In this document: positions 1 through 19,705 of the stretch, one piece after another
How positions within the stretch are numbered: the first letter of the stretch is position 1
Layout of the letters: every line of letters starts with the position of its first letter
Virus record (IMG/VR): IMGVR_UViG_3300035666_002348
Coordinates: 1-27,963 of that record
Reading direction: 5' to 3' (one strand)
Source of the DNA: a virus
DNA: 27,963 nt
Notes under the pieces: model-generated
Seen by the model: the letters and a program-made list of their open reading frames with translations, nothing else
Told to the model about the DNA's origin: nothing
The model's database searches: none
Position numbers and translations under genes: made by a program

Positions 1-255
1 GCCGCCTGGGTGTACCTGTTCGCGGCGCACGGGCGCGTGAAGATCGGGCACAGCGTCAACCCGGTGACCCGCGCCCGCAACCTCTCCACCACCGAGGAGG
101 TGACGGTGCTCGCCAGGAAGCGGTTCCGGTCTCGCCAGGACGCTCGCGCGGCCGAGGTCGAGCTACACCAGCGCTTCGCCCAGCACCGAATCCGTGGCGA
201 GTGGTTCGAGGATTGCGAGCTTATCCGCGAAGCATTCGGCGTGTCCTGTGGCTAA
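1..255 (+). CDS. GIY-YIG family protein (T5orf172/Mug113-like), 5' end cut by window edge
   Basis: The reading frame is open to the left edge, and the first residues seen are AAWVYLFAAHGRVKIGHS. This matches the core of the T5orf172/Mug113 branch of the GIY-YIG nuclease superfamily: a Y-L strand, then VKIGHS with Asn-Pro and an RxxxLS turn, then a basic helix, then an H-x-x-F helix ending in GEWFE. A GTG at 10 could start an 81-residue protein. I prefer a start outside the window, because homologues have residues before the YLF strand. Such proteins are frequent in phages and their role is usually unknown; DNA nicking or binding is inferred from the fold. The gene ends at 255, just before a non-coding regulatory stretch. 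Confidence 0.72.
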   Translation, partial: AAWVYLFAAHGRVKIGHSVNPVTRARNLSTTEEVTVLARKRFRSRQDARAAEVELHQRFAQHRIRGEWFEDCELIREAFGVSCG

Positions 256-481
256 GTTTGCCAAAACTGGTATGGCCCAGCCGCTGGCCCAACCTCCTCG
301 ACGACCCGCACGGGAGGCTGACGTGAGCGATTCCCCTTGGGAGTACTTCGGAGGGGCAGGATCAGCCTGCCAAGCGGATCGTAGCCCCGACTGGGCCAGC
401 CCGGGAGCGCCCACCGGGGCCGAAGCTGGCCCACGTCTGGCCCAGCTCCCGCCGGCCCGGTGAGGGTGCGTCGGTGAGCGT

Positions 482-499
482 CGCGAATATATTTTCGCG
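482..499. promoter_or_regulatory. Inverted repeat, candidate operator
   Basis: The arms CGCGAA and TTCGCG flank a 6-base AT-only centre (TATATT). The left half (GCGAATATAT, 483-492) is repeated exactly at 527-536, 44 bp away, which is close to four helical turns. In a genome of about 70% GC this arrangement upstream of a promoter-like sequence suggests a repressor or activator site. Seen: the repeats. Inferred: regulation. Confidence 0.45.
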
Positions 500-505
500 T
501 GAGGG

Positions 506-537
506 TTGACGGTCCCCCTCCAGCGTGCGAATATATA
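506..537 (+). promoter_or_regulatory. Candidate sigma70-type promoter for the 581-1615 operon
   Basis: TTGACG at 506-511 is a good -35 match. An 18-base spacer leads to AATATA at 530-535, which overlaps TATATA at 532-537, the clearest AT-rich patch in this part of the window. Transcription would begin near 545, leaving a short leader before the ATG at 581. A copy of the palindrome half-site lies over the -10 region, so the promoter is probably regulated. Confidence 0.5.
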
Positions 538-580
538 TCCATCGGAGGGCGAACGAAGCCCCCGAGCGGAGACACACCCC

Positions 581-793
581 ATGGCGAACGTCACTTACAC
601 CACGATCGGCAGCGTCCGCGGCTCCTGTGGCCACGCCCACCGCACCATCGCCACCGCGAAGGCGTGCGCAGACGCCGATCAGCGCGCGTGCAGTCGGCAC
701 GGCGGCTACTCCGACCGCTCCATCTGCCACTCGGACGGCTCGCGCCTCTCCGAGCGTGAGTACGAGCGCCTCGAGGACCTCCAGGGGGCCTGA
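581..793 (+). CDS. Small Cys/His-rich phage protein
   Basis: This 70-residue protein begins at an ATG with GCGGAG about 9 bases upstream. It is the first gene after the promoter candidate. It has several Cys/His clusters: SCGHAH near residues 15-20, ACSRHGGYSDR near 36-46, and a later ICH. Their spacing would allow a small zinc-binding fold. The pattern of a CGH-H-R segment, a central Cys-rich helix and a GGYSDR motif recalls an uncharacterised family of short phage and bacterial proteins, recognised from memory and not searched. No function can be assigned. The C-terminus (LSEREYERLEDLQ) looks helical. The gene is followed by a hairpin and then the next operon member. Confidence 0.6.
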   Translation: MANVTYTTIGSVRGSCGHAHRTIATAKACADADQRACSRHGGYSDRSICHSDGSRLSEREYERLEDLQGA

Positions 794-813
794 CCCTCGG
801 CCGCCCTCCCACC

Positions 814-838
814 AGCCCGTACCCGCAAGGGACGGGCT
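814..838 (+). terminator. GC-rich hairpin with GCAA loop (attenuator or mRNA structure)
   Basis: The arms AGCCCGT (814-820) and ACGGGCT (832-838) enclose an inner CCC-GCAA-GGG, giving a strong stem with one unpaired A and a GNRA-type tetraloop. It sits between the genes ending at 793 and starting at 865. There is no following T-tract, so a classical intrinsic terminator is unlikely. Partial termination, mRNA protection or control of the next start are alternatives. Confidence 0.4.
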
Positions 839-864
839 TCACCCGTCACACCCCAGGAGCCACC

Positions 865-1134
865 ATGCCGACCTACATCAGCGAACGCCGCCGCGCCCAC
901 CTCCAGTCCCTCGCCGCCGATGTCGCGTGGCCGCCCGGCTCGACCGCCGACCGCGCGTTCGCGGAGCTGCAGGACGAGTGCGCCGACTTCGCCGCCACCT
1001 CTGCCACCATCCCCGAGGGGCAGCCCTGGCCCAAGAGCCTGACCCACGGCCTCACGCCCAGCGGAGACGCGGCGCCGGTCCGGGTCGCCGCCGAAGCGTG
1101 GGTCGCGGAAGCGCGCGCCCGGCGGACCTCGTGA
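865..1134 (+). CDS. Hypothetical 89-residue phage protein
   Basis: The ATG is preceded by CAGGAG at good spacing. The protein is soluble and acidic in the middle (AELQDECADFAAT), with an ERRRAHL basic helix near the N-terminus and an Arg-rich C-terminus. I see no known domain or catalytic motif. The stop overlaps the GTG start of the next gene (GTGA at 1131-1134), so the two are translationally coupled. It is the second member of the plus-strand operon. GC-rich third codon positions support it as a real gene. Confidence 0.6.
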   Translation: MPTYISERRRAHLQSLAADVAWPPGSTADRAFAELQDECADFAATSATIPEGQPWPKSLTHGLTPSGDAAPVRVAAEAWVAEARARRTS

Positions 1135-1433
1135 CCCCCGACCTCCGCGCCCTCGCCGAGTCCGGGCTCTCCGCCGCCGAGATCGCCGCGCGCACGGGCC
1201 TGTCCCTCTCGGCGGTCCGCGGTCGCCTGCGTCGGCTCGGGGTCCGGCTCGCGAGCGCGGGGCCGGGGCGCCCCAGGAAGGACGGCACACGCTCCCGGGT
1301 GGTGCTGCAGCTGCCCCTCTCCGCCGAGGAGCACGCCGGGCTCGTGGTCGCAGCCGCTCCCGAGGACGTGGCGACCTGGGCGGTGCGCCAACTGCTGGAC
1401 GCGGGCGATCGCGTCGCCGAGGCGAAGCCGTGA
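1131..1433 (+). CDS. Helix-turn-helix DNA-binding protein
   Basis: This 100-residue protein starts at GTG 1131, overlapping the previous stop. Residues about 8-35 (AESGLSAAEIAARTGLSLSA then VRGRLRRLGVRL) form a textbook helix-turn-helix: a GLSAAEIA first helix, a turn at TGLS, and a recognition helix rich in Arg. A basic GRPRKDGTRSR segment follows. The rest (LPLSAEEHAGLVVAAAPEDV then a WAVRQLLDAG helix) resembles a small dimerisation or ribbon-helix-helix-like tail. It probably regulates transcription, possibly of its own operon through the repeats at 482-536; that link is inference. The next gene overlaps its stop by GTGA. Confidence 0.65.
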   Translation: MTPDLRALAESGLSAAEIAARTGLSLSAVRGRLRRLGVRLASAGPGRPRKDGTRSRVVLQLPLSAEEHAGLVVAAAPEDVATWAVRQLLDAGDRVAEAKP

Positions 1434-1615
1434 CCGCCCCGCTCGTGTGCGTCGCCGTCGTCCACGAGACCGGCACCCGTAGCCGTCGCTGCGGAGGTCC
1501 GGCGGTGGCCGTCGTCCACCGCGACGGCCAGCACCTGGAGCACCCTGCGTGTGCGCGCCACCTGGACCTCGCGCTCTCCGCCGGGTGGACCGGGCGACCC
1601 CTCACCCCTCGCTGA
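1430..1615 (+). CDS. Small Cys-containing protein, last gene of plus-strand operon
   Basis: This 61-residue protein starts at GTG 1430, coupled to the preceding stop. It has Cys at residues 7, 21 and 41 and a His just after the last (PACARHL), with an RRCGGPA turn. The layout suggests a small zinc-binding protein of the kind common in high-GC phages, but the family is not identified. The last 14 bases overlap the 3' end of the minus-strand metalloprotease gene, so the two operons converge with no intergenic terminator. Confidence 0.5.
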   Translation: MTAPLVCVAVVHETGTRSRRCGGPAVAVVHRDGQHLEHPACARHLDLALSAGWTGRPLTPR

Positions 1616-2234
1616 CCAGTCCCTCGTCGCCCCACCCGCCCTCGCTGTACCTCGGGTGCATCAGGTGGCCCGCCTTCGGCACGATGAGCCGAACCGCCCG
1701 CTCGTGGGCGTGCTTCCTGCCGAGCCGCGCAGTGACGTGGAGGTAGCCGAACGCGGCGTGGCCCAGCTCGTGGGCGATCACGCGCGCCACGTCGATCCCA
1801 GGGCGCGACAGCCGCTCGGGGTCGAGCACGATCGTCGAGGAGCGGATCACGCCGTCCACCGCGTCGACCTCGTGCGCGTCGTCGACGTCGGGGTCGTCCT
1901 CCAGCTCGGCGTCAACCTGCGCCGTCGCGAGGTGCCCGGTCCGGACCCAGCCGGGCGGGGGAGGGATGAGCATCACCGTGCCGGGGCCGGCGGTGTCCCC
2001 GTCGGTGAGCCACGGGCCGGTGACGCCGTGCCCCCGGGCGGCCCACCATGCGATCGCGTCGTACAGCGCATCTTCGAGCGCCAGCAGGTCACGGTGGAGG
2101 ACGATGCGCGGCGCCTCGGGGCCGAACCGGGCCACCCGCGGCACAACGGCCCGGCCAGCGCGGAGGGCGGCGATGGAGGCGGCGGTGAGGGCGGAGACGC
2201 CGTAGCCGACGACGGCGATCAGGGGGAGGGGCAT
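1602..2234 (-). CDS. Membrane-anchored zinc metalloprotease (HELGH, metzincin-like)
   Basis: This 210-residue protein has a good Shine-Dalgarno (AAGGAG) before the ATG. A hydrophobic segment at residues about 4-24 could be a membrane anchor or signal anchor. The zinc site is HELGH at 155-159 with Glu156 as the catalytic base. A third His at 166 and the Met-turn-like HLMHP at 190-194 follow. In metzincins the third ligand is at +10 from the first His (HExxHxxGxxH); here it is at +11 (HELGHAAFGYLH), so one residue is inserted. It is the last gene of the minus-strand block, next to the endolysin and small membrane proteins, so a role in cell-envelope breakdown or exported proteolysis is plausible. 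Specific substrate unknown. Confidence 0.7.
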   Translation of the reverse strand: MPLPLIAVVGYGVSALTAASIAALRAGRAVVPRVARFGPEAPRIVLHRDLLALEDALYDAIAWWAARGHGVTGPWLTDGDTAGPGTVMLIPPPPGWVRTGHLATAQVDAELEDDPDVDDAHEVDAVDGVIRSSTIVLDPERLSRPGIDVARVIAHELGHAAFGYLHVTARLGRKHAHERAVRLIVPKAGHLMHPRYSEGGWGDEGLVSEG

Positions 2235-2238
2235 GTGG

Positions 2239-2439
2239 TCACTCCTTCTTCTGGGGCACGCGCTTGGCGAAGTGTTCGCCGACGTTGGCCCCCATCGCGG
2301 ACCCGGTGAGGAACACCACGGCCCACGCCAGGGTGTCCAGGGCGTCCTGCGGCAGGTTCCCCATCACCGTCAGCGCGGCGAGCGTGAGCAGCGACCCCAG
2401 GCCGCTCGCCAACATCACGAGCTTGCGCTGGCTGATCAC
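2239..2439 (-). CDS. Small two-helix membrane protein, holin candidate
   Basis: This 66-residue protein uses a GTG start at 2439 that overlaps the endolysin stop (GTGA). A short basic N-terminus (ISQRK) is followed by a hydrophobic helix (about 8-26), a polar turn (NLPQDALD), a second hydrophobic helix (about 36-51) and a basic tail ending KRVPQKKE. Two membrane spans, small size and a charged tail beside an endolysin fit a class II holin. Other small membrane genes nearby compete for that role, so it may instead be an antiholin or accessory lysis protein. Confidence 0.6.
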   Translation of the reverse strand: MISQRKLVMLASGLGSLLTLAALTVMGNLPQDALDTLAWAVVFLTGSAMGANVGEHFAKRVPQKKE

Positions 2440-3176
2440 GGCAGCACTCCCAGCGCGCCGAGCGTGATCGGCCCCGCCTCGCCGTCGGGCACGAGCCCGC
2501 GGTCGATCTGGTACGCCCGCACGGCCTTCGCCGTCCGCGGCCCGTAGTCGCCGTCCGTGGGGCCGGGGTCGTAGCCGCGGGTGCGGAGGGCGACCTGCAG
2601 CCGCTCGACGAGGAGCCCGCGCTGCCCCTGTCGGAGCACGCCGGCCGGAGCGGCGTAGCCCTGGGTCGGGCCCGTCGCGAGGTATTGCACGCCGCGCACA
2701 CACACGCCCGCCGACCACCGACGCTGGTGGGCGTCCTGCCGCTCGACCACGCCGATGGAGGTGGAGTGCGCCTCGACGATCCCGCGCCCGTTGCCGGTGG
2801 CGATCCCGATGTGGCCGCCGATGTCGCCCGCGGGAGCCCTGAGGAGGATCGCGCCGGGGGTCTGGAGCGCCTCCGCCACGGGGATCCGGTACGCGGGGCC
2901 GGTGTCCGTGGCGATCTCCTGCGCCCAGTGGCCGGTGTAGGGCTCCACGCCGTCGGGCCCGCAGCCGACGCGCTTACCGTCGCACACGATCGACACCGCC
3001 CAGCTCACCAGCTCGGCGCAGTCCCACGCGCGGTCGGTCGTGGCGTCGAGCGGGGCCGGCGTGCCGTGGAGGCGGCCATGGTACTCGGGGTCGTCGAGGT
3101 CGACGGAGACCCCGAGGCGGTAGGCCTCGCCGATCCGGGTGCGGGCGAGGGCGAGGATCGCGGCGCCGGTGCTCAT
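2436..3176 (-). CDS. Endolysin: NlpC/P60-type hydrolase with C-terminal peptidoglycan-binding domain
   Basis: This 246-residue protein starts at an ATG (3176). The N-terminal part looks like an NlpC/P60 Cys peptidase: Cys53 in the DCAELVSWA helix start, His122 in GGHIGIATG, and His137 as a possible third residue. The C-terminal part, residues about 182-244, is a PG_binding_1 domain, with LRQGQRG then LQVALRTRGYDPGPTDGDYG, TAKAVRAYQ and DGEAGPITLGAL. It would cut peptide stems of host peptidoglycan at lysis. No signal peptide is seen, so release through a holin is expected. It sits inside a cluster of small membrane genes and overlaps its neighbours at both ends. Confidence 0.85.
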   Translation of the reverse strand: MSTGAAILALARTRIGEAYRLGVSVDLDDPEYHGRLHGTPAPLDATTDRAWDCAELVSWAVSIVCDGKRVGCGPDGVEPYTGHWAQEIATDTGPAYRIPVAEALQTPGAILLRAPAGDIGGHIGIATGNGRGIVEAHSTSIGVVERQDAHQRRWSAGVCVRGVQYLATGPTQGYAAPAGVLRQGQRGLLVERLQVALRTRGYDPGPTDGDYGPRTAKAVRAYQIDRGLVPDGEAGPITLGALGVLP

Positions 3177-3412
3177 GGCTTCTTCTCCGCAGGCCGGGCG
3201 GCGATCGCGAGTAGGGCCGCAGCGCCCATCAGCGCGGACAGCGAGCACACCCAGCCCGTGGCGGCGACGGCACCGCCTACCAGCGCGAGGAACGGATCGA
3301 CCCCTGCGGCGTACAGCACCCCGCCCGCGATCGCCATGTTCACGAGGTAGCGAAGCTGCCTGCGCCACCCTTTCGCATCGGCGAACTGCTCCCGAAGCTG
3401 TTCCTCGGTCAT
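3173..3412 (-). CDS. Small membrane protein, holin candidate
   Basis: This 79-residue protein starts at ATG 3412 (MTEEQLREQF). A charged, helical N-terminus of about 27 residues with a basic WRRQLR patch precedes two or three closely spaced hydrophobic stretches, at about 28-46 and 48-72. It ends RPAEKKP. The stop overlaps the endolysin start. Topology and position immediately upstream of the endolysin make this the best positional holin candidate, but several neighbouring genes look similar and none can be singled out from sequence. Confidence 0.6.
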   Translation of the reverse strand: MTEEQLREQFADAKGWRRQLRYLVNMAIAGGVLYAAGVDPFLALVGGAVAATGWVCSLSALMGAAALLAIAARPAEKKP

Positions 3413-3413
3413 G

Positions 3414-3518
3414 TCAGGGCTCCACGCGCGAGAGGATGGCGGCCACCACGACGAACGCCAGGGCGAGGGAGCAGGCAACGCCCACGGCGATCGCCACGGC
3501 CTCGCCCTGCGGGGTCAC
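3414..3518 (-). CDS. 34-residue single-span membrane peptide
   Basis: A GTG start at 3518 overlaps the preceding stop (GTGA), and the TGA at 3414-3416 lies one base before the next ATG. The peptide starts VTPQGEAVAIAVGVACS, continues with a hydrophobic run and ends SRVEP. It is one transmembrane helix with a short polar N-terminus and a single Cys at residue 16. It exactly fills the gap between two coupled genes, which is strong support despite its length. Possible roles are antiholin, pinholin-like peptide or lysis regulator; none is shown. Confidence 0.6.
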   Translation of the reverse strand: MTPQGEAVAIAVGVACSLALAFVVVAAILSRVEP

Positions 3519-3796
3519 GGCGCACCCGTCACGACGCGCCACACGTCGGGCAGGGACACCCCGAGCCCGGCGGCGATCGAGGCCAGCGCAACGAGGAACG
3601 CGAGGTGGTCGATCCGGATCCGGTCGCCGACCTTCGACTCCGCGAAGCTGCGCAGGTACGACCGCTCACCGGCCTTGGTGATCAGCTCCTCGAGCGCTTG
3701 GAGGATCAGCACGTCGCGCGCCTCGGGGGAGAGGGCGCGCGGGGTCGTGGGTGGCCCGTCGCTGCCGGCGGCGGGCGGAGGGAGGAGGTCGGGCAC
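3515..3796 (-). CDS. Tail-anchored small membrane protein in lysis region
   Basis: This 93-residue protein starts at GTG 3796, beginning two bases after the previous stop. A Pro-rich N-terminus (PDLLPPPAAGSDGPP) is followed by a soluble helical part (ARDVLILQALEELITKAGER, then YLRSFAESKVGDRIR). One hydrophobic span at about 63-80 and a short tail follow. The layout puts most of the protein in the cytoplasm. It is unlike a spanin, which would have an N-terminal span and periplasmic coiled coil. Function unknown; gene context suggests lysis control or membrane association. Confidence 0.55.
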   Translation of the reverse strand: MPDLLPPPAAGSDGPPTTPRALSPEARDVLILQALEELITKAGERSYLRSFAESKVGDRIRIDHLAFLVALASIAAGLGVSLPDVWRVVTGAP

Positions 3797-3797
3797 G

Positions 3798-4232
3798 TCA
3801 CGCCTCCGCGTGGTTGCGGTGGTCGCGTGCTTCGGCTCCGCGCCGTGCGTCCTCGAGGCGGCGCAGGATGGCGGCGCCCTGCTCCACCCTCGAGCCCGCG
3901 TCAGCCAGGCGGTGCGTGCGCGTGACGCCGGGCGCGGTGGTGTGCGAGGCGGCCACGAGGGAGACGGCGATCGCCCCGTCGAGGAGGGCGGACAGGGCGG
4001 CGGCGACCACCAGCGCCATCAGCGCGAGGTGGCAGCCCTGCGCCATCGCGAGGAGGGCGCCCGCCGCCGACACGAGGCCGGCCGGGATGACGAGCCGCTC
4101 CCGCACGGCGATCACGAGCCGGACCCCGGACGGGATCGACACCGCCGCGCGCATCACCCGCCAGTGCGCCGCCCCGTAGGCGCTCGAGCTCACCGCGTAG
4201 ACGAGGAGCACGACCCCCAGGGCGGCGGTCAT
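3798..4232 (-). CDS. Multi-span membrane protein
   Basis: This 144-residue protein starts at ATG 4232, overlapping the upstream stop (ATGA). Hydrophobic segments are at about 1-20, 48-64 and 68-97; the last may be two spans. A polar C-terminal third, from about residue 103, contains RVEQGAAILRRLEDARRGAEA, a likely short coiled coil. It could be a holin with an extended regulatory tail or an exclusion-type membrane protein. I do not recognise the family. Confidence 0.55.
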   Translation of the reverse strand: MTAALGVVLLVYAVSSSAYGAAHWRVMRAAVSIPSGVRLVIAVRERLVIPAGLVSAAGALLAMAQGCHLALMALVVAAALSALLDGAIAVSLVAASHTTAPGVTRTHRLADAGSRVEQGAAILRRLEDARRGAEARDHRNHAEA

Positions 4233-4852
4233 CACGCGCTCCGGTAGGCGAGCAGGGCGCCCACCACCGCGCCCGCGTCCGAGGCGAGCCGGACGGAGAC
4301 CTCGGCCGCGTTGGCTGCTTCGTCGCGCGCCACCATGGCCCCGGTGATCGGGCTCATCAGGGCGTTGTACGCGGCGCGCCCGGGGACCGCGACGGAGACG
4401 CCGTTGGCGGACAGGACGGTCCGGGGGAAGCCGGAGCCCGGGGTGACCTGGTCGTGGTGTTCGATGGTGAACATCCGGAGGCGTCCGCGGGTCGAGAGGT
4501 CCCACACCCGGTTCGAAGCGTCGGTGAAGGTCCAGCGGGTTTCCTCGATGCGCCGAACCTCGACGATGGCGGCGGCCCGGACTTCGGCGAGGTCGGCCGC
4601 CTGGATGGGCACCGCTGGCCCGCCGAACAGCAGGGCGTCGTCCGCCACGGGCCCCTGCGGGTCGTCGACGCACACGACGGTGGGCGCCAACCACGTCCCA
4701 TCGGCGCGGAGCTCGGGGGCCCCCGACTCGGGGCGCAGATCGAGGAGAACGGACCCAGGCACCAGGCCGGCGACGGGCACGCCCGCGTAGGCCAGGAGCT
4801 TCGCCCCGGTGGAGGGGAGCACGATCAGACCGGAACCGGCGACGGAACGCAT
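4232..4852 (-). CDS. Hypothetical protein, probably structural
   Basis: This 206-residue protein starts at ATG 4852 with GAGGAGG five bases upstream. It has mixed beta-type sequence, including ADGTWLAPTVVCVDDPQG and a RWTFTDASNRVWDLSTRGR segment typical of small beta-domains. A helical Ala-rich C-terminus (MVARDEAANAAEVSVRLA) ends near a weakly hydrophobic AGAVVGALLAY. No signal peptide or catalytic motif is evident. It lies between two signal-peptide proteins upstream and the membrane-protein cluster downstream. A tail-associated or host-surface role is possible but unsupported. Confidence 0.5.
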   Translation of the reverse strand: MRSVAGSGLIVLPSTGAKLLAYAGVPVAGLVPGSVLLDLRPESGAPELRADGTWLAPTVVCVDDPQGPVADDALLFGGPAVPIQAADLAEVRAAAIVEVRRIEETRWTFTDASNRVWDLSTRGRLRMFTIEHHDQVTPGSGFPRTVLSANGVSVAVPGRAAYNALMSPITGAMVARDEAANAAEVSVRLASDAGAVVGALLAYRSA

Positions 4853-4861
4853 GGGGCCTCC

Positions 4862-5359
4862 TCAGGCGACGCGGCGGCAGGTCATGACGACCCGGCCCGC
4901 TTTCATGGTGACGGCGGACGCGCCGATCTCGGAGCGAGCGCGGAGCTTGATGTCGTTGCCGGAGCCGGTGACCATCGCGGTTCCCCAGAAGGGATTGCCG
5001 GCCGTGGCCGCCGTGCCGGTGCCGGCCGCGAGGGTGCCCGCGGTGATGGACTCGAGACGGTTGACCAACGCCGTCCCCGAGGTTGGGGCGACCGCCCAGA
5101 ACGAGCCCGAGGCGCCCGCGCTGGTGATCGTCCACTGGAGGCCGGTGGTCGTCGCCGCCGTGTCAAAGTCGCCGGCCACGGTGACCATGTAGGACGCGCC
5201 CGACACCGTTGGGCAGGCCATGCCCGTCACGTCCGTGAGGGTGTTGGCGCTCTCCACGAAGTCGTTCGCCAGCACCACCATCACGTCGGCCGAGACCGGC
5301 GGGGAGTAGGACGGGCCCGCGAACGCCGACCCGACGAGGAACAGCAGGGTGCGCAGCAT
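4862..5359 (-). CDS. Signal-peptide protein with phage fibre-type beta domain
   Basis: This 165-residue protein starts at ATG 5359, two bases after the previous stop. The N-terminus MLRTLLFLVGSAFAG is a short signal peptide with a likely AFA/G cleavage site. The rest has a run found in many phage tail-fibre-associated beta-sandwich domains: NTLTDVTGMACPTVSGASY, then DTAATTTGLQWTI, and near the end SAVTMKAGRVV. That resemblance is from memory of the family. A structural-type domain with a Sec signal is unusual, because virion proteins normally assemble in the cytoplasm. Two Cys (49 and 161) could form a disulfide after export. It may be secreted or surface-displayed on the host. Confidence 0.6.
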   Translation of the reverse strand: MLRTLLFLVGSAFAGPSYSPPVSADVMVVLANDFVESANTLTDVTGMACPTVSGASYMVTVAGDFDTAATTTGLQWTITSAGASGSFWAVAPTSGTALVNRLESITAGTLAAGTGTAATAGNPFWGTAMVTGSGNDIKLRARSEIGASAVTMKAGRVVMTCRRVA

Positions 5360-5361
5360 GG

Positions 5362-5766
5362 TCACTCCGGGGTCTCGAAGACGATGAGCTCGACAGGAAG
5401 CGACGCGGTCGCGGAGGCGAGCGGGATCACGAGGTGGAGCGCGTCGGTGGTCGCCACACCGGGCGACACCGGGAGGACCAGCACACCACCAGCGGGGATC
5501 GTGAAGTACTCGTCGGTGGCGCCGACGAAGGCCCCGGTCTCGGTGTGCTTCCCGACGTACAGGACGCCGGACGAGTGGGCGTTGCGGATCATCACCTGCC
5601 GCGCCCAGACGGGGACGGTGTACGCCTCCCAGTCGGTGGCGGAGGGGAGCGCCACGCGCTCGATCAGCCAGGGGCGCGGACCTGCGATGGTGGTGGCGCT
5701 CCACGCAAGCGCCGGACCCAGCAGGGCCAGCACGAGTACCAGCAACCGCATCACCTGTACCAGCAT
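5362..5766 (-). CDS. Signal-peptide protein with beta-sandwich-like body
   Basis: This 134-residue protein begins at ATG 5766; a second ATG, five codons on, is also possible. The N-terminus (MLVQVMRLLVLVLALLGPAL then AWSATT) has a basic-hydrophobic-polar layout typical of signal peptides, with cleavage near ALA or AWS. The body contains VPVWARQVMIRNAHSSGVLY, DEYFTIPAG and a closing PVELIVFE. This pattern is common in short phage structural beta-proteins that present an oligomeric jelly-roll-like fold. It is coupled to the next signal-peptide gene. The pair may work together outside the cytoplasm. Confidence 0.58.
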   Translation of the reverse strand: MLVQVMRLLVLVLALLGPALAWSATTIAGPRPWLIERVALPSATDWEAYTVPVWARQVMIRNAHSSGVLYVGKHTETGAFVGATDEYFTIPAGGVLVLPVSPGVATTDALHLVIPLASATASLPVELIVFETPE

Positions 5767-5828
5767 CAGACCACCTCGCACCAGGAAGTTACCACGCAAC
5801 GAACACAACTGCTACCGAGGCGCCAGCG

Positions 5829-6053
5829 CTACGCCGTCAGCAGCGCGACCGCGACGGCCTCCGCCTCGGCGGCGCTGGCGATGCCCTCGTGCCGCCGTAC
5901 GTCGCCCGGCAGACCCTCGAGGTACACCGCCCACGCGCCGTCCGCCGGCGCCACCCACACGAGCAGCGTCTCGTCTCGCTCGTCACCGGCCGGGTACCAG
6001 GCCACGCACCCGCCGCCGAGGTCTTTCCGAGTCGTCTCCACGCGCGCCTCCAC
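5829..6053 (-). CDS. Small acidic hypothetical protein
   Basis: This 74-residue protein uses a GTG start at 6053 immediately after the preceding TGA. The middle reads as beta strands (GGCVAWYPAG, then TLLVWVAPADGAWAVYLEGL) and the C-terminus as an Ala-rich helix. No known motif. The length, tight junction and GC-rich wobble positions favour a real gene. A short non-coding gap (5767-5828) that is less GC-rich follows. Confidence 0.5.
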   Translation of the reverse strand: MEARVETTRKDLGGGCVAWYPAGDERDETLLVWVAPADGAWAVYLEGLPGDVRRHEGIASAAEAEAVAVALLTA

Positions 6054-7256
6054 TCACTGCACCCGCTCGACGACGGCGCCGCGGATCTGCGGCCCCGAAG
6101 CCGTGGCGGCGTTGAGCGACAACCACAGCAGCAGGCAGGACCCATCGTAGCAGCGCGGGCCCACGGCGTTGCTCTGTCCGCCGATCGCGAGCGTGCCCGT
6201 GTTGACCGCCGAGAACGGGACTGCGGCGACCTCGCGGTAGATCAGGAGCGAGATCGTGCCCGTGGCGAGGCTCGTCCCGAGCGTGATCGACTGGATGGAG
6301 CGCACCCCACGCGAGCCCGCTGGCTGCAAGAACGGCACCACGGTGCCGATCACCGGCGTCGCAGGGATCACGGTCGGGATCACGGCGGACAGCGTGGCGA
6401 CCCGCGCGTTCCCGTCGCTGTCGGTGTAGTTCACCGTGGCGTTGCTGATGGCGCCGGCGTTGGTCGCAGCGGCCACGAACAGCAGCGCGATCCCGTAGCC
6501 CTCTCCGTTGCTGCTGCCGTTCACGTCGCGCGCGGGCAGCGTCGGGGTCGTGATCGCCTGCGCGGTGGTGGTCGTGACCACGAGCCCGGAGTTGCACCAG
6601 ACGACATCCACCAGCATCGCGCCGCCGGCGATCGAGTTGGAGCCGCTGAGGAGGTCCAGGCTGGTGACGTAGCCGGACGTGGCGTTCGCCCACGGGATGC
6701 ACCCGGCGTCCGTGCTGGTCGTCCCGTCGGTCACGCGGCCGTTGACCCCGGGCGTCCCTGGTGCCCACGGGCCCGGGATCCCGGCGTCCTTCGCCGTCGA
6801 GTACCAGTACCCAGCGGCCTCTGGGACTGTGCAGGATTTCTGCACCATGAAGGGGCGGCCCGCGCGTGCCGTCCCGACTCCGGGGCGCGGATCGCCGCTG
6901 GCCATCAGCACCCGCCAGCCCCCGCCGGCCTCGTACTGCAGGGCCTCCCCGGGGCCGAGCCGGCAGGGGCACAGCGGGCGGGCGGTGGTCCCGTCCCACA
7001 GGTCGATCGAGGTGGTGACGGTGGCGCTCGACGAGGTGTTCCGCAGGGTGAGCGACTTCACCACGCGTTTCCCGCTCGCCGGCGAGCCCACGATCGTGGT
7101 GGTCGTCGCCGAGGAGATCGAGCCCGGCGCCACCGCGTCGATCGTGATCGAGCTCGCGGCGTCGTCACCGTAGCTCGCGGCGTAGTGGAGCACGTCGGTG
7201 GTCGTCGTGGTGACCCGCAGCGTGGTGGTGGTCGTCAGGACGATGCCGAGGGACAT
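6054..7256 (-). CDS. Tail-associated structural protein, Thr-rich
   Basis: This 400-residue protein starts at ATG 7256, overlapping the fibre gene stop. The N-terminus is Thr-rich (VLTTTTTLRVTTTTTDVLHY) and is followed by beta-type sequence such as SLTLRNTSSSATVTTSIDLW and RLGPGEALQYEAGGGWRVL, typical of small phage beta-sandwich modules. A short Gly/Pro stretch (AGIPGPWAPGTPG) sits near residue 170. The C-terminal part has RGVRSIQSITLG, a run of strands, and ends GAVVERVQ. A pattern of two or three stacked beta domains suggests a fibre or tip component. No enzymatic motif is seen. Confidence 0.6.
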   Translation of the reverse strand: MSLGIVLTTTTTLRVTTTTTDVLHYAASYGDDAASSITIDAVAPGSISSATTTTIVGSPASGKRVVKSLTLRNTSSSATVTTSIDLWDGTTARPLCPCRLGPGEALQYEAGGGWRVLMASGDPRPGVGTARAGRPFMVQKSCTVPEAAGYWYSTAKDAGIPGPWAPGTPGVNGRVTDGTTSTDAGCIPWANATSGYVTSLDLLSGSNSIAGGAMLVDVVWCNSGLVVTTTTAQAITTPTLPARDVNGSSNGEGYGIALLFVAAATNAGAISNATVNYTDSDGNARVATLSAVIPTVIPATPVIGTVVPFLQPAGSRGVRSIQSITLGTSLATGTISLLIYREVAAVPFSAVNTGTLAIGGQSNAVGPRCYDGSCLLLWLSLNAATASGPQIRGAVVERVQ

Positions 7257-7909
7257 CAGAGGCCTCCGAACAGGGCGAGGCGCCGAGCGCCGGTGACGAG
7301 CGCGGACCCCGCCGTGCTGACGAAGGCCTCCGACGCGAGCTGCTCCCACGCCGCGCCGGAGTAGTACTCGAGCACGCCGAGGGTCGTGCTCGCCCGGAGC
7401 CGGCCCGCGGTGCTGGCGCCGCGCTGCCCGGTCGTCCCGATCGGCAGGACCATCCCGCCGGTGCCGGGGACCGTCGGGTTGCTCGCGAGGCCGATCGTGG
7501 GCGCGCCGGACACGCCGGATCCGTTGGCCACCGCCACCTCGTCGGTGGTCCCGGCGATCGTGCGCACCGTCCACCCCGAGCCGGTCCGAACGGCGACGCC
7601 GGTGGACGCCAGGGCCGCGATCGCGGTCAGATCGGCGTCCAGCGGCTGGTAGTGGGCGGCGTAGTCGGTAGACAGGGCGGTCACGACACCGGTGCGGCCG
7701 AACACCGAGGACACGGAGCCGCCCCCGCCTCCGCCGCCCGACAGCAAGGTCCACGTCCCCGTCGTGGCCTCCACGAGGACGTACGGGTCGTTGGTGGTGG
7801 TGTCGACCCAGTGGTCGCCCAGGCGGTACCCGGCGGCCGAGTCCTCGGCGGTCGTGGGCGCCACGCTGTCGGAGTACCAGCGGCGAAGTCCGAGCCCGCG
7901 AACAGCCAT
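7256..7909 (-). CDS. Tail fibre protein
   Basis: This 217-residue protein carries recognisable phage fibre features: an N-terminal GDHWVDTTTNDPYVLVEATT segment, a run of eight Gly at about residues 58-65, then VSSVFGRTGVVTALSTDYAA and YQPLDADLTAIAALA. These are typical short repeats of receptor-binding fibres. The C-terminus (GRLRASTTLGVLEYYSGAAW) resembles the common fibre end pattern. It probably attaches to the tail tip and contacts the host. It starts at ATG 7909, just downstream of the hub-like gene. Confidence 0.75.
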   Translation of the reverse strand: MAVRGLGLRRWYSDSVAPTTAEDSAAGYRLGDHWVDTTTNDPYVLVEATTGTWTLLSGGGGGGGSVSSVFGRTGVVTALSTDYAAHYQPLDADLTAIAALASTGVAVRTGSGWTVRTIAGTTDEVAVANGSGVSGAPTIGLASNPTVPGTGGMVLPIGTTGQRGASTAGRLRASTTLGVLEYYSGAAWEQLASEAFVSTAGSALVTGARRLALFGGL

Positions 7910-7912
7910 CGG

Positions 7913-9469
7913 TCAGCCCTCCAGCCGGACGGTCAGCAGCGTGCGGCGCGTGGTGCGCACGACCCCGGGGCGGACCAGGCCGAGCCGGGCCGTCCCTCCG
8001 TCCCGCACCTCGACGGTGTCGCCGGCGCGGACGACCCGGCCCAGCTCGACGGAGCCCTCGAACTCCGCCACCACCCCGGGCAGGGTGAACAGCTCGACGT
8101 GGCGGCGGGCGATGGCCCACGCGGTGGCGACGTCGCTCGTCTGCGCCCACACCTCGCGCACCGGGAGCGCGTCGGCCGGCGCATCGGGAGCCAGCAGCTC
8201 GCGCGCACGGATGCAGGTGGGGTGCACGATCTGCCTGCTGAACGAGCCCGGCGCGAACGTCAGCTCCGGGACGTACTCGACGCGCAGCGCCCACGAGTCG
8301 GTGCCGTGGCGGCCGTACCAGACCCGCGTCACCACGCCGGGGGTGTCCAGCTCCTCGTCGGCGTAGGGTCCCGTCCGCGTGACCTGGTACCCGCCCGAAG
8401 AGCCGCGCGTCGACAGCACCGCCCGCAGGCGCGTCACGTCGGGGGCGGTCTGGCGGGCGCGGTAGTAGACGCCCGCGGGGCCTTCGACGCGGTCGACAAG
8501 GCACGCCGCGAGGATGCCCTGCGACGCCCACTCTTCCCAGGTGATGTCCGGGTCGTTGATCGCGGCGTCGACGAGGAAGCGATCGAGGTCGACCCGGGCA
8601 GCGCGGATCGCCTGCAGGTCGTACTGGACCCGGCCAGGGCGGAACAGCGCGCCCCACAGGAGGACCGAGCCGAGCCCCCGCACGAGCTCGCCCTCGAGCA
8701 GTACACCGCCGCCGTTGGGCCAGGCCGCGAACAGGTTTGAGCCGCGATCGGGGGCGAACGTGCTCGGCACCAGCACCGTCGCGACCGGGGACCCGTCGGC
8801 GTCGACGGACTGCTCGATCGGCATCGACTGCCCGGTGAGGGAGGCGGCGACGGTGAAGTCGTACACGGTGACGTCGGTGGCGTGCACGACGTGCGAGGCG
8901 ACAGCGTACCGCGTGACGAAGCCGAGGATGGCGTCGAAGTACATCGGCGTGACCTCGACCAGCGGGGAGCTGGGGATCGGCAACGTGCCGGCGCCTGGCG
9001 TGCCGATGACGACCGGGATCCCCTCGCCGTAGCTATCTTCGGGCAGGGAGCTCCACCCGATCGTACTGGCCGTGGCGTGGGGGGCGAGGACGCGGGCCGA
9101 CAGGTCGGCGGCCGCCAGCTCGAGCCCCAGCACCAGCCGCCCCGGTGCCTCGGGGTCGTCCCAACTCGCGGTCGACACCACGCCGCGCATGAGGACTGCG
9201 GCGTCCTCGAGCTGCTGGCCGGGGTGCCACATCCGCAGCACCGCCTCGCGGCCGACCCACGGACCCGCCACCCGCCGCACGGTGTCGGCGTCCGCCAGGC
9301 GCACCGCGACCACCACGGCTTCCACGTCGTCGGGTACCTCGGGCTCGTCCAGGCCCGAGGGGAACCGGACCGTCCCGCCCGCGCTCGGCACGTCCACCGC
9401 CGACGTCGCGACGCGGACCGACCCGCCGCCGCCGAGCACCTCGAGCAGCATCGCCGGGACGTCCGCCAC
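7913..9469 (-). CDS. Tail tip/hub-like structural protein
   Basis: This 518-residue protein starts at GTG 9469, one base after the upstream stop. It is made of beta-rich domains without a catalytic motif. Examples are VLMRGVVSTASWDDPEAPGR near residue 92, GIPVVIGTPGAGTLPIP near 149, and a C-terminal FEGSVELGRVVRAGDTVEVR module that looks like a tail-hub beta-barrel. Its position between the large tail-tip protein and the fibre is where siphoviruses encode the baseplate hub or Tal-type protein. Assignment rests mainly on position and fold style. Confidence 0.6.
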   Translation of the reverse strand: MADVPAMLLEVLGGGGSVRVATSAVDVPSAGGTVRFPSGLDEPEVPDDVEAVVVAVRLADADTVRRVAGPWVGREAVLRMWHPGQQLEDAAVLMRGVVSTASWDDPEAPGRLVLGLELAAADLSARVLAPHATASTIGWSSLPEDSYGEGIPVVIGTPGAGTLPIPSSPLVEVTPMYFDAILGFVTRYAVASHVVHATDVTVYDFTVAASLTGQSMPIEQSVDADGSPVATVLVPSTFAPDRGSNLFAAWPNGGGVLLEGELVRGLGSVLLWGALFRPGRVQYDLQAIRAARVDLDRFLVDAAINDPDITWEEWASQGILAACLVDRVEGPAGVYYRARQTAPDVTRLRAVLSTRGSSGGYQVTRTGPYADEELDTPGVVTRVWYGRHGTDSWALRVEYVPELTFAPGSFSRQIVHPTCIRARELLAPDAPADALPVREVWAQTSDVATAWAIARRHVELFTLPGVVAEFEGSVELGRVVRAGDTVEVRDGGTARLGLVRPGVVRTTRRTLLTVRLEG

Positions 9470-9470
9470 G

Positions 9471-12400
9471 TCAGACCGCCTCGACGATGATCAGCGTTCC
9501 GAACCGGACGAACTCGCCGTCGTCGGGGTCGTCGCGCCCGCCCTGCTGCGTACGGACCTCGCCCTCGACGTACCCGACGAGCCACCGCGTGGGGTCGGTG
9601 ACCGTGCCCACCGACTCGCTCGCGTGGTCGCCGAGGAGCACGAGCACCGGCAGGGCCCCGCCCTCGGCGCTCTCGATCAGACCCTCGACCTGGCCGCGCA
9701 CGTCGTCGCGGGCGACCCGGGTCGAGCCGCTGGCGGTGCCGAGCCAGCCCGCCGTCGCTGCGGTGTTGTCGACGTGCCGCGCCTCGAGCTGGCCCTCGTC
9801 CCAGTTGAGGGTCAGCGACCGGCGGGAGGGGCCGAGCTGCGTCCGCCGGTCGGTGTTCGCGACGTCGAGGTCGCTCCCCACGTTGGGCGCGCGACCCCAC
9901 TCGTAGCCGGGGCTCCACTGCTTGCCGAGCGGCACGCCGCCGAACAGATACGCCGCCCCGATCTGGTAGTAGTCGTTGGCGGCCTCGGTGGACGCGATCA
10001 GCAGCGACCACCACCGGTAGCGGATCGTGGCGCTCGGCGAGGCGTGCGCGACCGCCACGCCCGCGGGCCACACGAGCTCGCAGTCCGCCGTGGCGCCCGG
10101 CGAGCCGGCGATCTCGGCGCGCTCGACGTACACGGTGACGGTGGGCCCCGTGGCGGGGTCCGACCAGTAGCCCGCGGTGTTGTCGCGGATGGTCGCCACG
10201 AACGGCCCGCCGGCCGAGGCGTTGGCGTCGTACACGATGTGGCCGCCGCGGAGCTCCCCTCGGCGGATGTACCGGGCCCCGACCACGGTGCCGGCGACTG
10301 GGCGGAGGGTGTCGCCGACCAGGGCGCCGGTCAGGCCGGTGAAGCCCTGCGCGAGGTCGACCACGAGGATCGACTGCCACGTCGGGGACGCGTCGTCCGG
10401 CGCGGCTTCCAGCGTGATCGTCCGCACGTTGCACCCGCGGACCGCCAGCGCGATCGTGCCGCCGCCGGCCCCGATCTCGGTGTCGTAGCCGAGGTCCAGC
10501 GCGATCCGCTGGTCGGCACCGGGCGCCACCGACCGCCAGGCCACCGACGGCGAGGGCTCGACGGTGGGCAGCAGGGCCTCGACGGGGTGGCCGTGGGCCG
10601 CCGGGAGGCCGTACACCTCGCCGGGGATGGCCGGACCACCTCGCACCCGGGCCAGCGCCAGGCGCTCGCGGACGGGGTCGTGCAGGTCGGGCAGGTAGTA
10701 GCTCGACGCGCCCACGCCGGTCTGGTCGAGGCCCTCGACGAGCGCGGTGTACACACCCTTCGCGCGGACGTACCACCAAGAGTGGATGCAGTTCGCGACG
10801 CCCACGATCTGGCCCCACCGACATCGAACGTTCGATGACGCGGAGGCGCCGGACCCCTGCGTCGACCACGTCAGAGCCACCCACTTCGTGGTCCCGTCGG
10901 TCCGGTGCGCGACGTACCCGTCCGCCCCACGGAACGCGACGCGCACGTGGTACCGGCCGGAGGCGGTGACCTTGCCCGTCAGCCACGCGGCCCCCTCCTC
11001 GTCGCGTACGCGGTATCCGCCCTCGTCGTGCCACACGGTGAGGCGCCGCACGGCCGCGCTGTTGCGGGCGCGGAGCTCGAGCCCGATCCCCTGGTCGTTC
11101 GGGGTCGTGTCGGTGGTCCCGCCGTCGTTGGTGACCTCGATGCAGTACTCCGCCGACGCCTCGTTCTCGTCGCCGGTGTAGACGTCCAGGTCGTAGCAGA
11201 TCTGATCCGCGGCGCCTCCGCTGTACAGCGTGAGCCCCAGCGCGGCGCCGATGAGGCTCGACGTGCCGGGGCCCGTGAGGGTCCAGGCCGGACCGTCGAG
11301 GAGGATGCTCGTCGGGTCCAAGGAGCCGGACCACACGCCGTCCGTGCGCCCTGCACCGGATTCGGCCCAATCGTTGCCGTCGCGCCCCGGGCCATGCCAG
11401 CCGCCAAGGTGGACGTAACCGTAGCCGTACGACCGGTAGGCGCAGGCGAACCCGCCTGCGGGGTGAGGAACCGCGCGCACGCTCCAGTTGTCGGTGCGCG
11501 CCACGGCCGAGGCCGCCGTCCAGGTGACGCCGCTGTCGACGGAGAACTTGACCGCGGTCTGCGCCCCGCCGCCGCTCCCGCTGTACCAGACCCAGATGGA
11601 GCCGTTCGTGTCGATCCCGATACTGCACGCCGAGCACGTCGGGATCTTGACCACCTCGACGTAGTCGACGGCGCTGGGGTCGTCGAAGGCGGACGCGAGG
11701 CGGCGGAACCGGATCGAGTCGTCACCGGCGTCGTCCTCGTTCGTGATGACCCCGAGCCATCCGTCCGGGTGCCGCGCCACGTCGACGGAGTAGGCGGTGA
11801 TCGTCCCGGTCTGGCTCCACGTCCGCCCGAGGTCGTAGCTCGCCGCGAACCGCGCCGCGGGCGCGCTCGAGATGCCGACCCACAGGACGGCGCCGGCGGC
11901 GTCGAAGGCCGCGCGGTGCTTGATCTGGTGGTCCACACCGGTCGCGGCGGTGAACGTCGGGGTCCCGGTGAACGCGTCGTACAGCGCGCCGGAGGCATCG
12001 ACCGTGGTCCAGGTCGCGCCGTGGTCGTCGGTGCACACCACCAGCGTGGGCGCGAAGCTCCAGAGGCGGCCGGTCCCGGGCTGGTACGCGATCGCCGCGG
12101 CGTCGCCGAGGTCCGGCGTCGTGCCGGCACTGGTGAGCGTCCCGAGCCCGAGCGCTCCCCAGGGGTCGAAGATGCCGAGCTCGTCGGCGGCGGTCGTCCC
12201 GAGGAGGATCGCGACACGGCCCGACACGTCGTCGAACGCGGCGTCGTGGCGCGTCGACGGGGCCGGGGACGTGGTCGTCCAGCGGCGGTAGTCGGTGATC
12301 GTGACCGGAGGCTGGTACCCACGCAGCTCGGCGAGGGTCTCGCCGTCCAGGTAGTACCCCCAGCCGAGGCCATCCCCGCCGGGGGTCGGGTACCCAGCCT

Positions 12401-12596
12401 GGGTCGTGACGAGCGTGGCGTCGACGTACTGCGCGCCCACCACCGCGGGGTCCAGCCGGCCGCCGGTCGGTGGCTCGGCAAGGCCGGGGCGCGGGTCGCC
12501 CTCGGTCGCGTCGCTGTTCACGTCGTCGACGAACGCTGCGCGCCAGCGGGGATCGAGGACGCCGAACAACCGAAGTGGACGGTCTACCTGCGCCAT
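9471..12596 (-). CDS. Large tail protein with three Asp-box (sialidase/BNR-type) repeats
   Basis: This 1041-residue protein starts at ATG 12596 (ATGA overlap with the tape measure stop). Asp-boxes of the S-x-D-x-G-x-T-W type occur at about residues 188-196 (CTDDHGATW), 252-260 (ASYDLGRTW) and 352-359 (SVDSGVTW), so residues about 100-400 probably form a beta-propeller. A LamG-like lectin region may follow (about 430-590, with GIGLELRARNSAAVRRLTVW). The C-terminal third has tail-type domains, including QIGAAYLFGGVPLG and EWGRAPNVGSDLDVANTDRR. The known role of Asp-box propellers is glycan binding or cleavage; the sialidase catalytic Arg triad cannot be confirmed. Likely host-surface recognition at the tail tip. 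Confidence 0.7.
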   Translation of the reverse strand: MAQVDRPLRLFGVLDPRWRAAFVDDVNSDATEGDPRPGLAEPPTGGRLDPAVVGAQYVDATLVTTQAGYPTPGGDGLGWGYYLDGETLAELRGYQPPVTITDYRRWTTTSPAPSTRHDAAFDDVSGRVAILLGTTAADELGIFDPWGALGLGTLTSAGTTPDLGDAAAIAYQPGTGRLWSFAPTLVVCTDDHGATWTTVDASGALYDAFTGTPTFTAATGVDHQIKHRAAFDAAGAVLWVGISSAPAARFAASYDLGRTWSQTGTITAYSVDVARHPDGWLGVITNEDDAGDDSIRFRRLASAFDDPSAVDYVEVVKIPTCSACSIGIDTNGSIWVWYSGSGGGAQTAVKFSVDSGVTWTAASAVARTDNWSVRAVPHPAGGFACAYRSYGYGYVHLGGWHGPGRDGNDWAESGAGRTDGVWSGSLDPTSILLDGPAWTLTGPGTSSLIGAALGLTLYSGGAADQICYDLDVYTGDENEASAEYCIEVTNDGGTTDTTPNDQGIGLELRARNSAAVRRLTVWHDEGGYRVRDEEGAAWLTGKVTASGRYHVRVAFRGADGYVAHRTDGTTKWVALTWSTQGSGASASSNVRCRWGQIVGVANCIHSWWYVRAKGVYTALVEGLDQTGVGASSYYLPDLHDPVRERLALARVRGGPAIPGEVYGLPAAHGHPVEALLPTVEPSPSVAWRSVAPGADQRIALDLGYDTEIGAGGGTIALAVRGCNVRTITLEAAPDDASPTWQSILVVDLAQGFTGLTGALVGDTLRPVAGTVVGARYIRRGELRGGHIVYDANASAGGPFVATIRDNTAGYWSDPATGPTVTVYVERAEIAGSPGATADCELVWPAGVAVAHASPSATIRYRWWSLLIASTEAANDYYQIGAAYLFGGVPLGKQWSPGYEWGRAPNVGSDLDVANTDRRTQLGPSRRSLTLNWDEGQLEARHVDNTAATAGWLGTASGSTRVARDDVRGQVEGLIESAEGGALPVLVLLGDHASESVGTVTDPTRWLVGYVEGEVRTQQGGRDDPDDGEFVRFGTLIIVEAV

Positions 12597-14338
12597 CAGC
12601 CTCTCCTCCGCACGTACCCAGGAGGGGGACCGGCCGACACGCCACGTCCCGAGCGCGCCGCCCTGGCCATCGACCGGCCCACCTGCCGCCCGTCGAGGTA
12701 CACGTCCGCGGGCCCGCCACCGGCCCCAGCCCCCGACAGGCTCCGCAGCGGGGACAGACCCTGGTTCAGCACGCGCACGAGTTGGTCCATGGCGCGCTGG
12801 TTCAGCACGCCCTCGCCCTTGTGCAGGAGGACCGCGCCCTCGCCGTCGCCGCGGTCGGTGCCGCCGCCGAACAGGCTGGGGATCTTGGTGCTTGCGGCCT
12901 TCCCGATCTGGATGCCGGAGGTCACGGTGGCCGTCGCGATCGCTGGGATATTGAAGGGTGGAGGCGCGGAAGCGATGGCCTGCGCGACGGCGGTGATCCC
13001 GGAGAGGATGGCGCTCGTGACAGCGACCTTCTTCTGGAAGATCGCGAGGTCGCGTGCCGACATCTTCCCGGCCTTCGCGTTCTTCTCCGCGTTCTCGACC
13101 GCGAGCTCGCCGAACTCGGCGTACACGTCGGACAGGGAGCCGACCGCGTCCAGCGCGAAGTCCCGCGCCGCCCGGTCGGCTTCCTTCTTCCTCTCCGCCG
13201 CCGCCTCGTAGGCCGCGATCTGCTTGTCGATCTCCGCGATGATGCCGTCGGTCCCGGCCTGGAAGCTCTCGACCTGGGACGCGATCGTCGCCTCGGTGAT
13301 CGCCTTCGCCTTCGCCGCGGCCTCCTCCTGCATGGCCGTCGTGCTGGCGTACAGGCCCCGCTGCATGGCGAGGTCGCGCTCGTAGTAGGTGGCCTTGTCC
13401 GCTTCGAGCGCTTTCAGCAGCTCGGCGTCGGCGGTCTCTTTCGCCTTGCGAGCGTCGGCCCCGGCCTTGGCGGCCGCCTTCTCGACCCGCTCCTCGTCCT
13501 TCCCGTGCTCGATCATGGCCGCGATGCGGGCCTTCTCGGCGTCCTGCAGCGAGACGACCGCGCGCACCTGCGTCTTCGTCGTCTGGACGTGGGCCTCGCC
13601 CTTGGCGGCCAGCGAGCCGAACGCCTTCTCGACCGCCCACAGCTCCCAGGAGATGGGGCTGATCCACCCCGCGATCTCGCGGATCGGCTCGAACGTGTCG
13701 TACACGGCCTTCGTGCCGACGGCGACGGAGCCGAGCGCGTCGATCAGGCCGACCGTGGCGTGCGCTGCGTCGGTGAGCGCGGGGGCGAACTCCGACCCGA
13801 CCGCCACCGTGAGGAGGTCCACCTCCCGGCGCAGGTCCTTGTTCGCCTCCTCGTAGTCCTGCAGCGACACGAGGGCGTCGTGCGGCAGCATCGCCGCGAG
13901 GCCCTGCTCCTTGAGCCGGTCGCGGGCCTCGACGGCGGCGTCCGCCATCGCCATGCTGGCCATGGCCAGGGCGCCGGCGACGACGACGGCCCCGGCCAGC
14001 CCGGCCCCGGCGATGGCGACACCGCCCAGCGCCGCGCTGGCCTGCCCCGCCTTCGGCACCAGCTCGAAGATGGCGTCGCCGAACTGGGCGAACGGCCCGC
14101 CCGCAAGGCTCGACACCTTCTTCCCGACGTCGCTCCACGACTTCGCGACGTTGTCGGCGACGCTGGCGTTCGCCTTGCCGAGCCCTGCGGCGTCCTTCGC
14201 GGCCTGCACGTAGAGGTTCTTCTGCAGCGCCGCCGCGCTCTTGTCCGCCGCCTGCGCCGTGATGCCGGGGATCTTCCCCATCTCGGCGCGGAACTTCTCG
14301 ATCTTCGCCTGAATCTCGAGGTCGATGCGCTCGCTCAT
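12596..14338 (-). CDS. Tape measure protein
   Basis: This 580-residue protein starts at ATG 14338. The order of features is characteristic: an N-terminal helical region, a hydrophobic Gly/Ala segment at about 103-131 (GGVAIAGAGLAGAVVVAGAL), long Ala/Lys/Glu-rich coiled coil from about 255 to 430 (AKAGADARKAKETADAELLK), another weakly hydrophobic stretch (AILSGITAVAQAIASAP), and a C-terminal KGEGVLNQRAMDQLVRVLNQ motif common in tape measure proteins. It sits downstream of the tail chaperone genes. By the usual rule of about 0.15 nm per residue the tail would be at most about 85-90 nm. Confidence 0.88.
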   Translation of the reverse strand: MSERIDLEIQAKIEKFRAEMGKIPGITAQAADKSAAALQKNLYVQAAKDAAGLGKANASVADNVAKSWSDVGKKVSSLAGGPFAQFGDAIFELVPKAGQASAALGGVAIAGAGLAGAVVVAGALAMASMAMADAAVEARDRLKEQGLAAMLPHDALVSLQDYEEANKDLRREVDLLTVAVGSEFAPALTDAAHATVGLIDALGSVAVGTKAVYDTFEPIREIAGWISPISWELWAVEKAFGSLAAKGEAHVQTTKTQVRAVVSLQDAEKARIAAMIEHGKDEERVEKAAAKAGADARKAKETADAELLKALEADKATYYERDLAMQRGLYASTTAMQEEAAAKAKAITEATIASQVESFQAGTDGIIAEIDKQIAAYEAAAERKKEADRAARDFALDAVGSLSDVYAEFGELAVENAEKNAKAGKMSARDLAIFQKKVAVTSAILSGITAVAQAIASAPPPFNIPAIATATVTSGIQIGKAASTKIPSLFGGGTDRGDGEGAVLLHKGEGVLNQRAMDQLVRVLNQGLSPLRSLSGAGAGGGPADVYLDGRQVGRSMARAARSGRGVSAGPPPGYVRRRG

Positions 14339-14748
14339 CGGCCACCACCAGCCGCGCCACGGCGGATCTTGTCGGCGATGCTGCGGAGCGCGTCACGCAC
14401 CGGCGTGTACACCAGCCGGATCGAGGGCAGCTTCGGGGACTGGTTGTGCTGGACGATGGCCCGCGAGTAGGGTGCGTCGTTGCGCAGCCGCCACGCCGGG
14501 TTGTCGGGGGTGCCGCTGTCGGTGAGGGAGAACGAGGCCTTGGAGCGCCCGGTGTCCACGGGCCACTGCCGAACGGCGTTGGCCTGGACCACCTTGAGCA
14601 TCGCCGCGATCTCGTGGTCGGCGGCGTCGCTGGTCCGCTCGACGAGCTCCCCGACGAGCGCCTCGACGTCGGTCGCCACCGTGACCGCCGCACCGCCACC
14701 ACCGCGCACGGCAGGAGCAGCCCGCGAGCCGGCGGGGTCAACGCGCAT
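14335..14748 (-). CDS. HK97 gp10-like tail/head-tail joining protein
   Basis: This 137-residue protein starts at ATG 14748 (an in-frame GTG at 14754 is an alternative). The core pattern is that of the HK97 gp10 family: a helix with IAAMLKVVQANAVRQW, then PVDTGRSKASFSLT, then RLRNDAPYSRAIVQHN. Members act in head-tail joining or tail completion. The start overlaps the end of the chaperone extension by 11 bases and the stop overlaps the tape measure start. Its place between chaperones and tape measure is unusual; it is more often found before the tail terminator and major tail protein. Confidence 0.75.
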   Translation of the reverse strand: MRVDPAGSRAAPAVRGGGGAAVTVATDVEALVGELVERTSDAADHEIAAMLKVVQANAVRQWPVDTGRSKASFSLTDSGTPDNPAWRLRNDAPYSRAIVQHNQSPKLPSIRLVYTPVRDALRSIADKIRRGAAGGGR

Positions 14749-15354: not shown

Positions 15355-15379
15355 GGCGTGCCCTCCAGGTCAGGTCGAG

Positions 15380-15853: not shown

Positions 15854-15862
15854 GCTGCCTCC

Positions 15863-16351: not shown

Positions 16352-16359
16352 AGAGAGCC

Positions 16360-17591: not shown

Positions 17592-17599
17592 CAGTCACC

Positions 17600-18250: not shown

Positions 18251-18260
18251 GGCGCCCTCC

Positions 18261-18620: not shown

Positions 18621-18622
18621 GC

Positions 18623-19674: not shown

Positions 19675-19705
19675 AGGCCCTCCAGAGACTGCAGCGGGTG
19701 CAGCC

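Follow-up and report, generated by a model that had tools for sequence, protein, structure and literature searches.

Adjacent phage genes with Sec-signal-like N-termini between tail and lysis genes, one of them encoding a stand-alone predicted TNF-like module

Introduction

The usual assumption for tailed phages is that virion proteins are both synthesised and assembled within the cytoplasm. Two neighbouring genes of a phage record, here called A and B, raise the question of why proteins that resemble parts of a particle would begin with what looks like an export signal. An earlier note on this DNA had described the pair as virion-type beta proteins with Sec signal peptides that might be exported to block receptors at the cell surface or be released, and had suggested that they could form an undescribed system. 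We have followed up these claims in the record itself and in other phage loci.

Results

The window, that is, the whole stretch of 27,963 bases analysed here (IMGVR_UViG_3300035666_002348), has a GC content of 72% and carries nearly all of its genes on the minus strand. The genes run in the order terminase, portal and capsid region, tail, A, B and then lysis genes (Table 1), the names terminase, portal and capsid being based partly on gene order and weak profile hits. Terminase and tail queries from the window matched none of 50,697 phage records, capsid queries likewise returned nothing, and by its sequence this phage is distant from everything in the phage collections searched. Elsewhere in the window, a minus-strand gene adjoining the lysis genes (1602-2234) has a hydrophobic N-terminus and a HELGH zinc-protease motif with weak family hits, a small plus-strand ORF (10-255) matches endonuclease-containing PHROGs, and the product of 26738-27742 (minus strand) contains imperfect proline-rich repeats of the RQPTASAPPA type in its middle.

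Table 1. Positions of genes A and B, their parts and other features discussed in the text
Feature	Position	Strand	Description
A, whole gene	5362-5766	minus	134 aa
A, Sec-signal-peptide-like N-terminus	5704..5766	minus	MLVQVMRLLVLVLALLGPALA, then predicted cleavage before WSATT
A, mature part	5362..5703	minus	orphan of about 113 aa; model beta-rich and of low confidence
B, whole gene	4862-5359	minus	165 aa
B, Sec-signal-peptide-like N-terminus	5318..5359	minus	MLRTLLFLVGSAFA, then predicted cleavage before GPSYSPP
B, TNF/C1q-like module	4862..5317	minus	Cys49 and Cys161 unique to B
Separate N-module gene	6054..7256	minus	lacks a signal peptide; holds the module that relatives have fused to a B-type module
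Probable lysis genes downstream of A and B	2239..4232	minus	small membrane proteins and endolysin with PG_binding_1
Tape measure	12596-14338		PHROG E 7.6e-10
Signal-bearing genes of G001, about six (L120 = G001 1-20000)	315-1118, 9834-11222, 11955-12785, 14180-15691, 15714-16481, 16478-18094		structural region

Gene A starts with an ATG at 5766, with GAGG 7 bases upstream, and gene B with an ATG at 5359, with GGAG 5 bases upstream; a gap of 2 bases separates B from the stop codon of A. Later in-frame starts of B (codons 26-29), which would lie past the signal, were rejected because they have no ribosome site. The GC3 of the signal-coding parts (0.81 in A and 1.00 in B) is close to that of the bodies (0.93 and 0.95) and of coding type. 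The ORFs, ribosome sites and GC3 confirm the adjacent pair described in the earlier note as genuine genes, packed closely together between those for tail and lysis.

Signal peptides were judged not by SignalP but by a hand-made rule, consisting of a positive n-region, a hydrophobic core and an AxA-type site, which recognised 6 of 7 E. coli controls. By this rule both proteins have the Sec-signal-like N-termini first noticed in the sequence: each has a positive n-region and an AxA site, with a mean hydropathy of 3.65 over the 8-residue core in A and a core mean of 2.38 in B. The 14-residue signal option of B is unusually short, and a second candidate cleavage site, which follows residue 24 between VSA and DVM, lies where the folded domain begins. 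Among 902 genes called in other loci, 18 reach the score of B and one that of A; it is unlikely that both neighbours pass the rule by chance, although these loci do not sample phages at random. As a rough base rate, signal peptides occur in one of the 82 genes of one phage and in none of the 86 genes of another (PMC4615864). The mature part of A also includes a hydrophobic beta stretch, whose maximal 19-residue hydropathy of 1.89 exceeds the cut-off applied to exclude membrane proteins in other loci. We looked for a membrane anchor or an outer-membrane route for A and B and found neither, and no lipobox was found in either protein. Because the lipobox is absent, identities as a superinfection-exclusion lipoprotein or an outer-membrane spanin were rejected.

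Protein B carries the pattern DVTG-x21-AATTTGxxW, which we take to be a signature of phage proteins. A search of viral contigs with this pattern returned 38 loci with one protein family throughout, and the profile built from them detects B at E 1.2e-15, at an identity of 29-36% to most relatives. Since the pattern itself had selected these sequences, parts outside it were tested as well: the stretch after the pattern alone ranked B at the top of 2001 sequences, with a weak score, and no signal for B came from the short stretches before and within the pattern. Residues S143, E144 and A149 of B, outside the search pattern, are invariant in the alignment. A wider profile scan gave 101 distinct domain matches, some of which are to the partner N-module and do not represent new proteins. 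In most relatives the B-type module forms the C-terminal half of a structural protein, after another module or collagen-like repeats, and in the approximately 100 loci with this two-module protein a signal peptide is nearly always absent. B is neither fused to the N-module nor preceded by a collagen-like stalk, and because the N-module sits in a separate gene of the window (E 5e-25), B is the C-module on its own. By homology B is thus firmly assigned as a stand-alone variant of the C-module with a predicted signal peptide, not as the full two-module protein. Searching directly for B, with exact peptides in viral and genome contigs and with tblastn in phage records, yielded no relative, and PHROGs and Pfam hold no family for it. 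In two MAG loci labelled Chitinophagaceae and Sphingobacteriales (L044 and L045), the same TNF-like module is located at the C-terminus of signal-peptide proteins, which may be encoded by host or by prophage genes.

The model of B (pLDDT 79) is a TNF/C1q-like jelly roll. Among solved structures it is matched best by the TNF-like lectins PLTL and BC2L-C (Z 13.9, for the monomer fold), and phage fibre and collagen-like proteins were matched also; a PDB sequence search with the B family had no lectin among its matches. Where B has Cys49, all 33 aligned relatives carry a Phe, and none of them has Cys161. In the model Cys49 is on strand 42-49 and Cys161 on or near strand 158-164. A disulfide between them is plausible because these strands presumably neighbour each other in a TNF-like fold.

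Much less can be said of protein A, whose model (pLDDT 62) is beta-rich after an N-terminal helix. Its top-ranking matches in BFVD are phage proteins that are small and unnamed, and its PDB fold matches on this poor model, including YomS (Z 6.8) and XepA (Z 6.5), are at background level only. No relatives of A were found by exact peptides in viral contigs or by tblastn in phage records, and PHROGs and Pfam have no family for it. Its identity as the missing N-module is unsupported (hhalign E 0.055, probability 1). The earlier note had given virion-type beta bodies to both proteins and proposed structure prediction as a check; this description holds for B, by both profile and model, and is only suggestive for the orphan A.

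Genes in other loci were called with a codon-model gene caller, because choosing the longest ORF missed genes in GC-rich loci. In L007, a phage with an HK97-like order of terminase, portal, protease and capsid-like genes, a 170-aa gene (L007:5779-6291) directly before the two-module protein has a predicted signal of about 27 residues, and a PHROG head protein aligns with residues 25-156 of its product (E 3.6e-25). Homologs of this protein in cultured phages start where its signal ends and lack its two cysteines. In G001, a podovirus-type phage in which terminase, portal and head-closure genes were confirmed, the signal-bearing set of about six genes includes a tailspike-type N-terminal domain, whose CAGC motif is absent from homologs, and a beta-helix protein immediately before the two-module protein. 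These six genes encode 25 cysteines in 2157 residues versus 12 in 3963 for their neighbours, an approximately fourfold excess that is found mostly in four of the six. L086 and L087 share a conserved body, with N-termini that have diverged yet still look like signals. Signal-bearing genes also follow the portal in the complete public genome MW202554, without significant cysteine enrichment, and the tail collar protein of this genome has a signal-like start without positive charge. Signal-like N-termini are seen in MW202554.1 at 13349-14374 and 25674-29579, on tail collar, glycoprotein-repeat and concanavalin-like lectin proteins. Three signal-bearing members of the B family (L113, L044 and L069) have zero cysteines in the domain. 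Judged from these sequences, signal-bearing versions of recognised virion-type domains recur in unrelated phages (L007, G001 and MW202554).

Discussion

Most likely, A and B are exported appendage-type proteins that would be released at lysis. Our preferred reading, to which we give a probability of about 0.45, is that they are late proteins leaving the cytoplasm via Sec before lysis, B as a free TNF-like trimer binding envelope glycans and A as its exported neighbour or partner. Counting against this reading, three signal-bearing members of the B family are without a cysteine in the domain and MW202554 is not significantly enriched in cysteine. We infer that both would be expressed with the tail and lysis genes, exported, cleaved and held outside the cytoplasmic membrane until lysis. 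B would be a TNF-like knob that was split from its N-module and given a signal peptide; it would trimerise outside the cytoplasm, where the Cys49-Cys161 disulfide could form. When the neighbouring lysis genes act, B would be freed together with the progeny, and the free trimer could bind envelope glycans; in this way it might, for example, cover receptors on debris to which progeny would otherwise be lost. In the case of a Gram-negative host, A and B would wait in the periplasm; blocking of receptors on the outside would therefore need a further step, whereas release at lysis would not. Of the two fates offered in the earlier note, release is plausible because A and B lie between tail and lysis genes, and surface blocking finds no support in proteins that show no lipobox, anchor or outer-membrane route. 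B is probably a glycan-binding trimer, and a free trimer of this kind is our first choice for a protein without the module that presumably anchors its relatives, although the shared TNF fold alone is no proof of lectin function.

Exported proteins could also be genuine parts of the virion: they would fold once outside the cytoplasm and be added to particles at the end of assembly, when lysis lets the compartments mix. We consider this possible for A and B, if unlikely, since the N-module that presumably anchors its relatives is missing from B. The other loci lend it more weight: the signal-bearing tailspike-type domain of G001 follows a long gene, in the position of tailspikes in PBR31 and Pam1, and has no other copy in the 40 kb examined of this partial locus, while the signal-bearing head-type protein of L007 lies between capsid and connector-type genes, again with no second copy in a partial locus. 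These two proteins are at least as likely to be added to particles after export as to remain free, because they hold the usual structural positions and no second copy occurs in the sequence examined. The general proposal that some tailed phages send genuine appendages via Sec to fold and form disulfides outside, with lysis joining the pools and completing assembly outside the cytoplasm, seems to us unlikely. It is rather unlikely that A and B are ordinary virion proteins whose hydrophobic N-termini stay uncleaved and unexported, for example as assembly or attachment segments. Their genes do lie in the structural region and the homologs of B are cytoplasmic structural modules, but both proteins have the positive n-region, core and AxA site, the same layout recurs on unrelated domains, and cultured-phage homologs begin where the signal ends. 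Lysis accessory proteins resembling XepA, which is encoded in the lytic cassette of prophage PBSX and is exported and absent from particles (PMC6834076), would suit genes that adjoin lysis genes, and the model of A matches YomS and XepA weakly; on this poor model those matches do not rise above background, and the fold of B is TNF-like, which makes this identity improbable.

With export and release at lysis as the preferred reading, some phages may export proteins of particle type ahead of lysing their host cell. If unrelated phages indeed bear signals on virion domains, this would point to exported lectins or decoys as a class that has gone unnoticed, or to an assembly that ends outside the cytoplasm; further cases could then be recognised simply by signal peptides on genes of the structural region. 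In the literature searched, which is not exhaustive, we found no description of tail-region virion proteins that bear signal peptides; within that literature the pair is undescribed, as the earlier note had suggested it might be, and so is the recurring variant.

Among known systems, the two-module phage structural protein (for example, L012:7249-8106 and L007:6298-7143) is closest, its C-module being homologous to B and its N-module having its counterpart in the window gene 6054-7256; B differs from it by standing alone, with a predicted signal peptide and two new cysteines. PLTL of Photorhabdus laumondii and the N-terminal domain of BC2L-C of Burkholderia cenocepacia have a fold like that of the B model (rmsd 1.9 over approximately 116 residues), a likeness to bacterial lectins known from fold only, at 17% identity. 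XepA (PBSX) and YomS (SP-beta) of Bacillus subtilis prophages are beta-sandwich phage proteins, as A is beta-rich, and form C2-like pentamers; the export of XepA is a partial precedent for A and B. The secreted endolysin Lys44 of phage fOg44 (PMC6116005) is a late protein whose signal peptide takes it out of the cytoplasm ahead of lysis; it resembles A and B, with their predicted export signals, in this respect, and unlike them it is a lysis enzyme rather than a virion-type protein.
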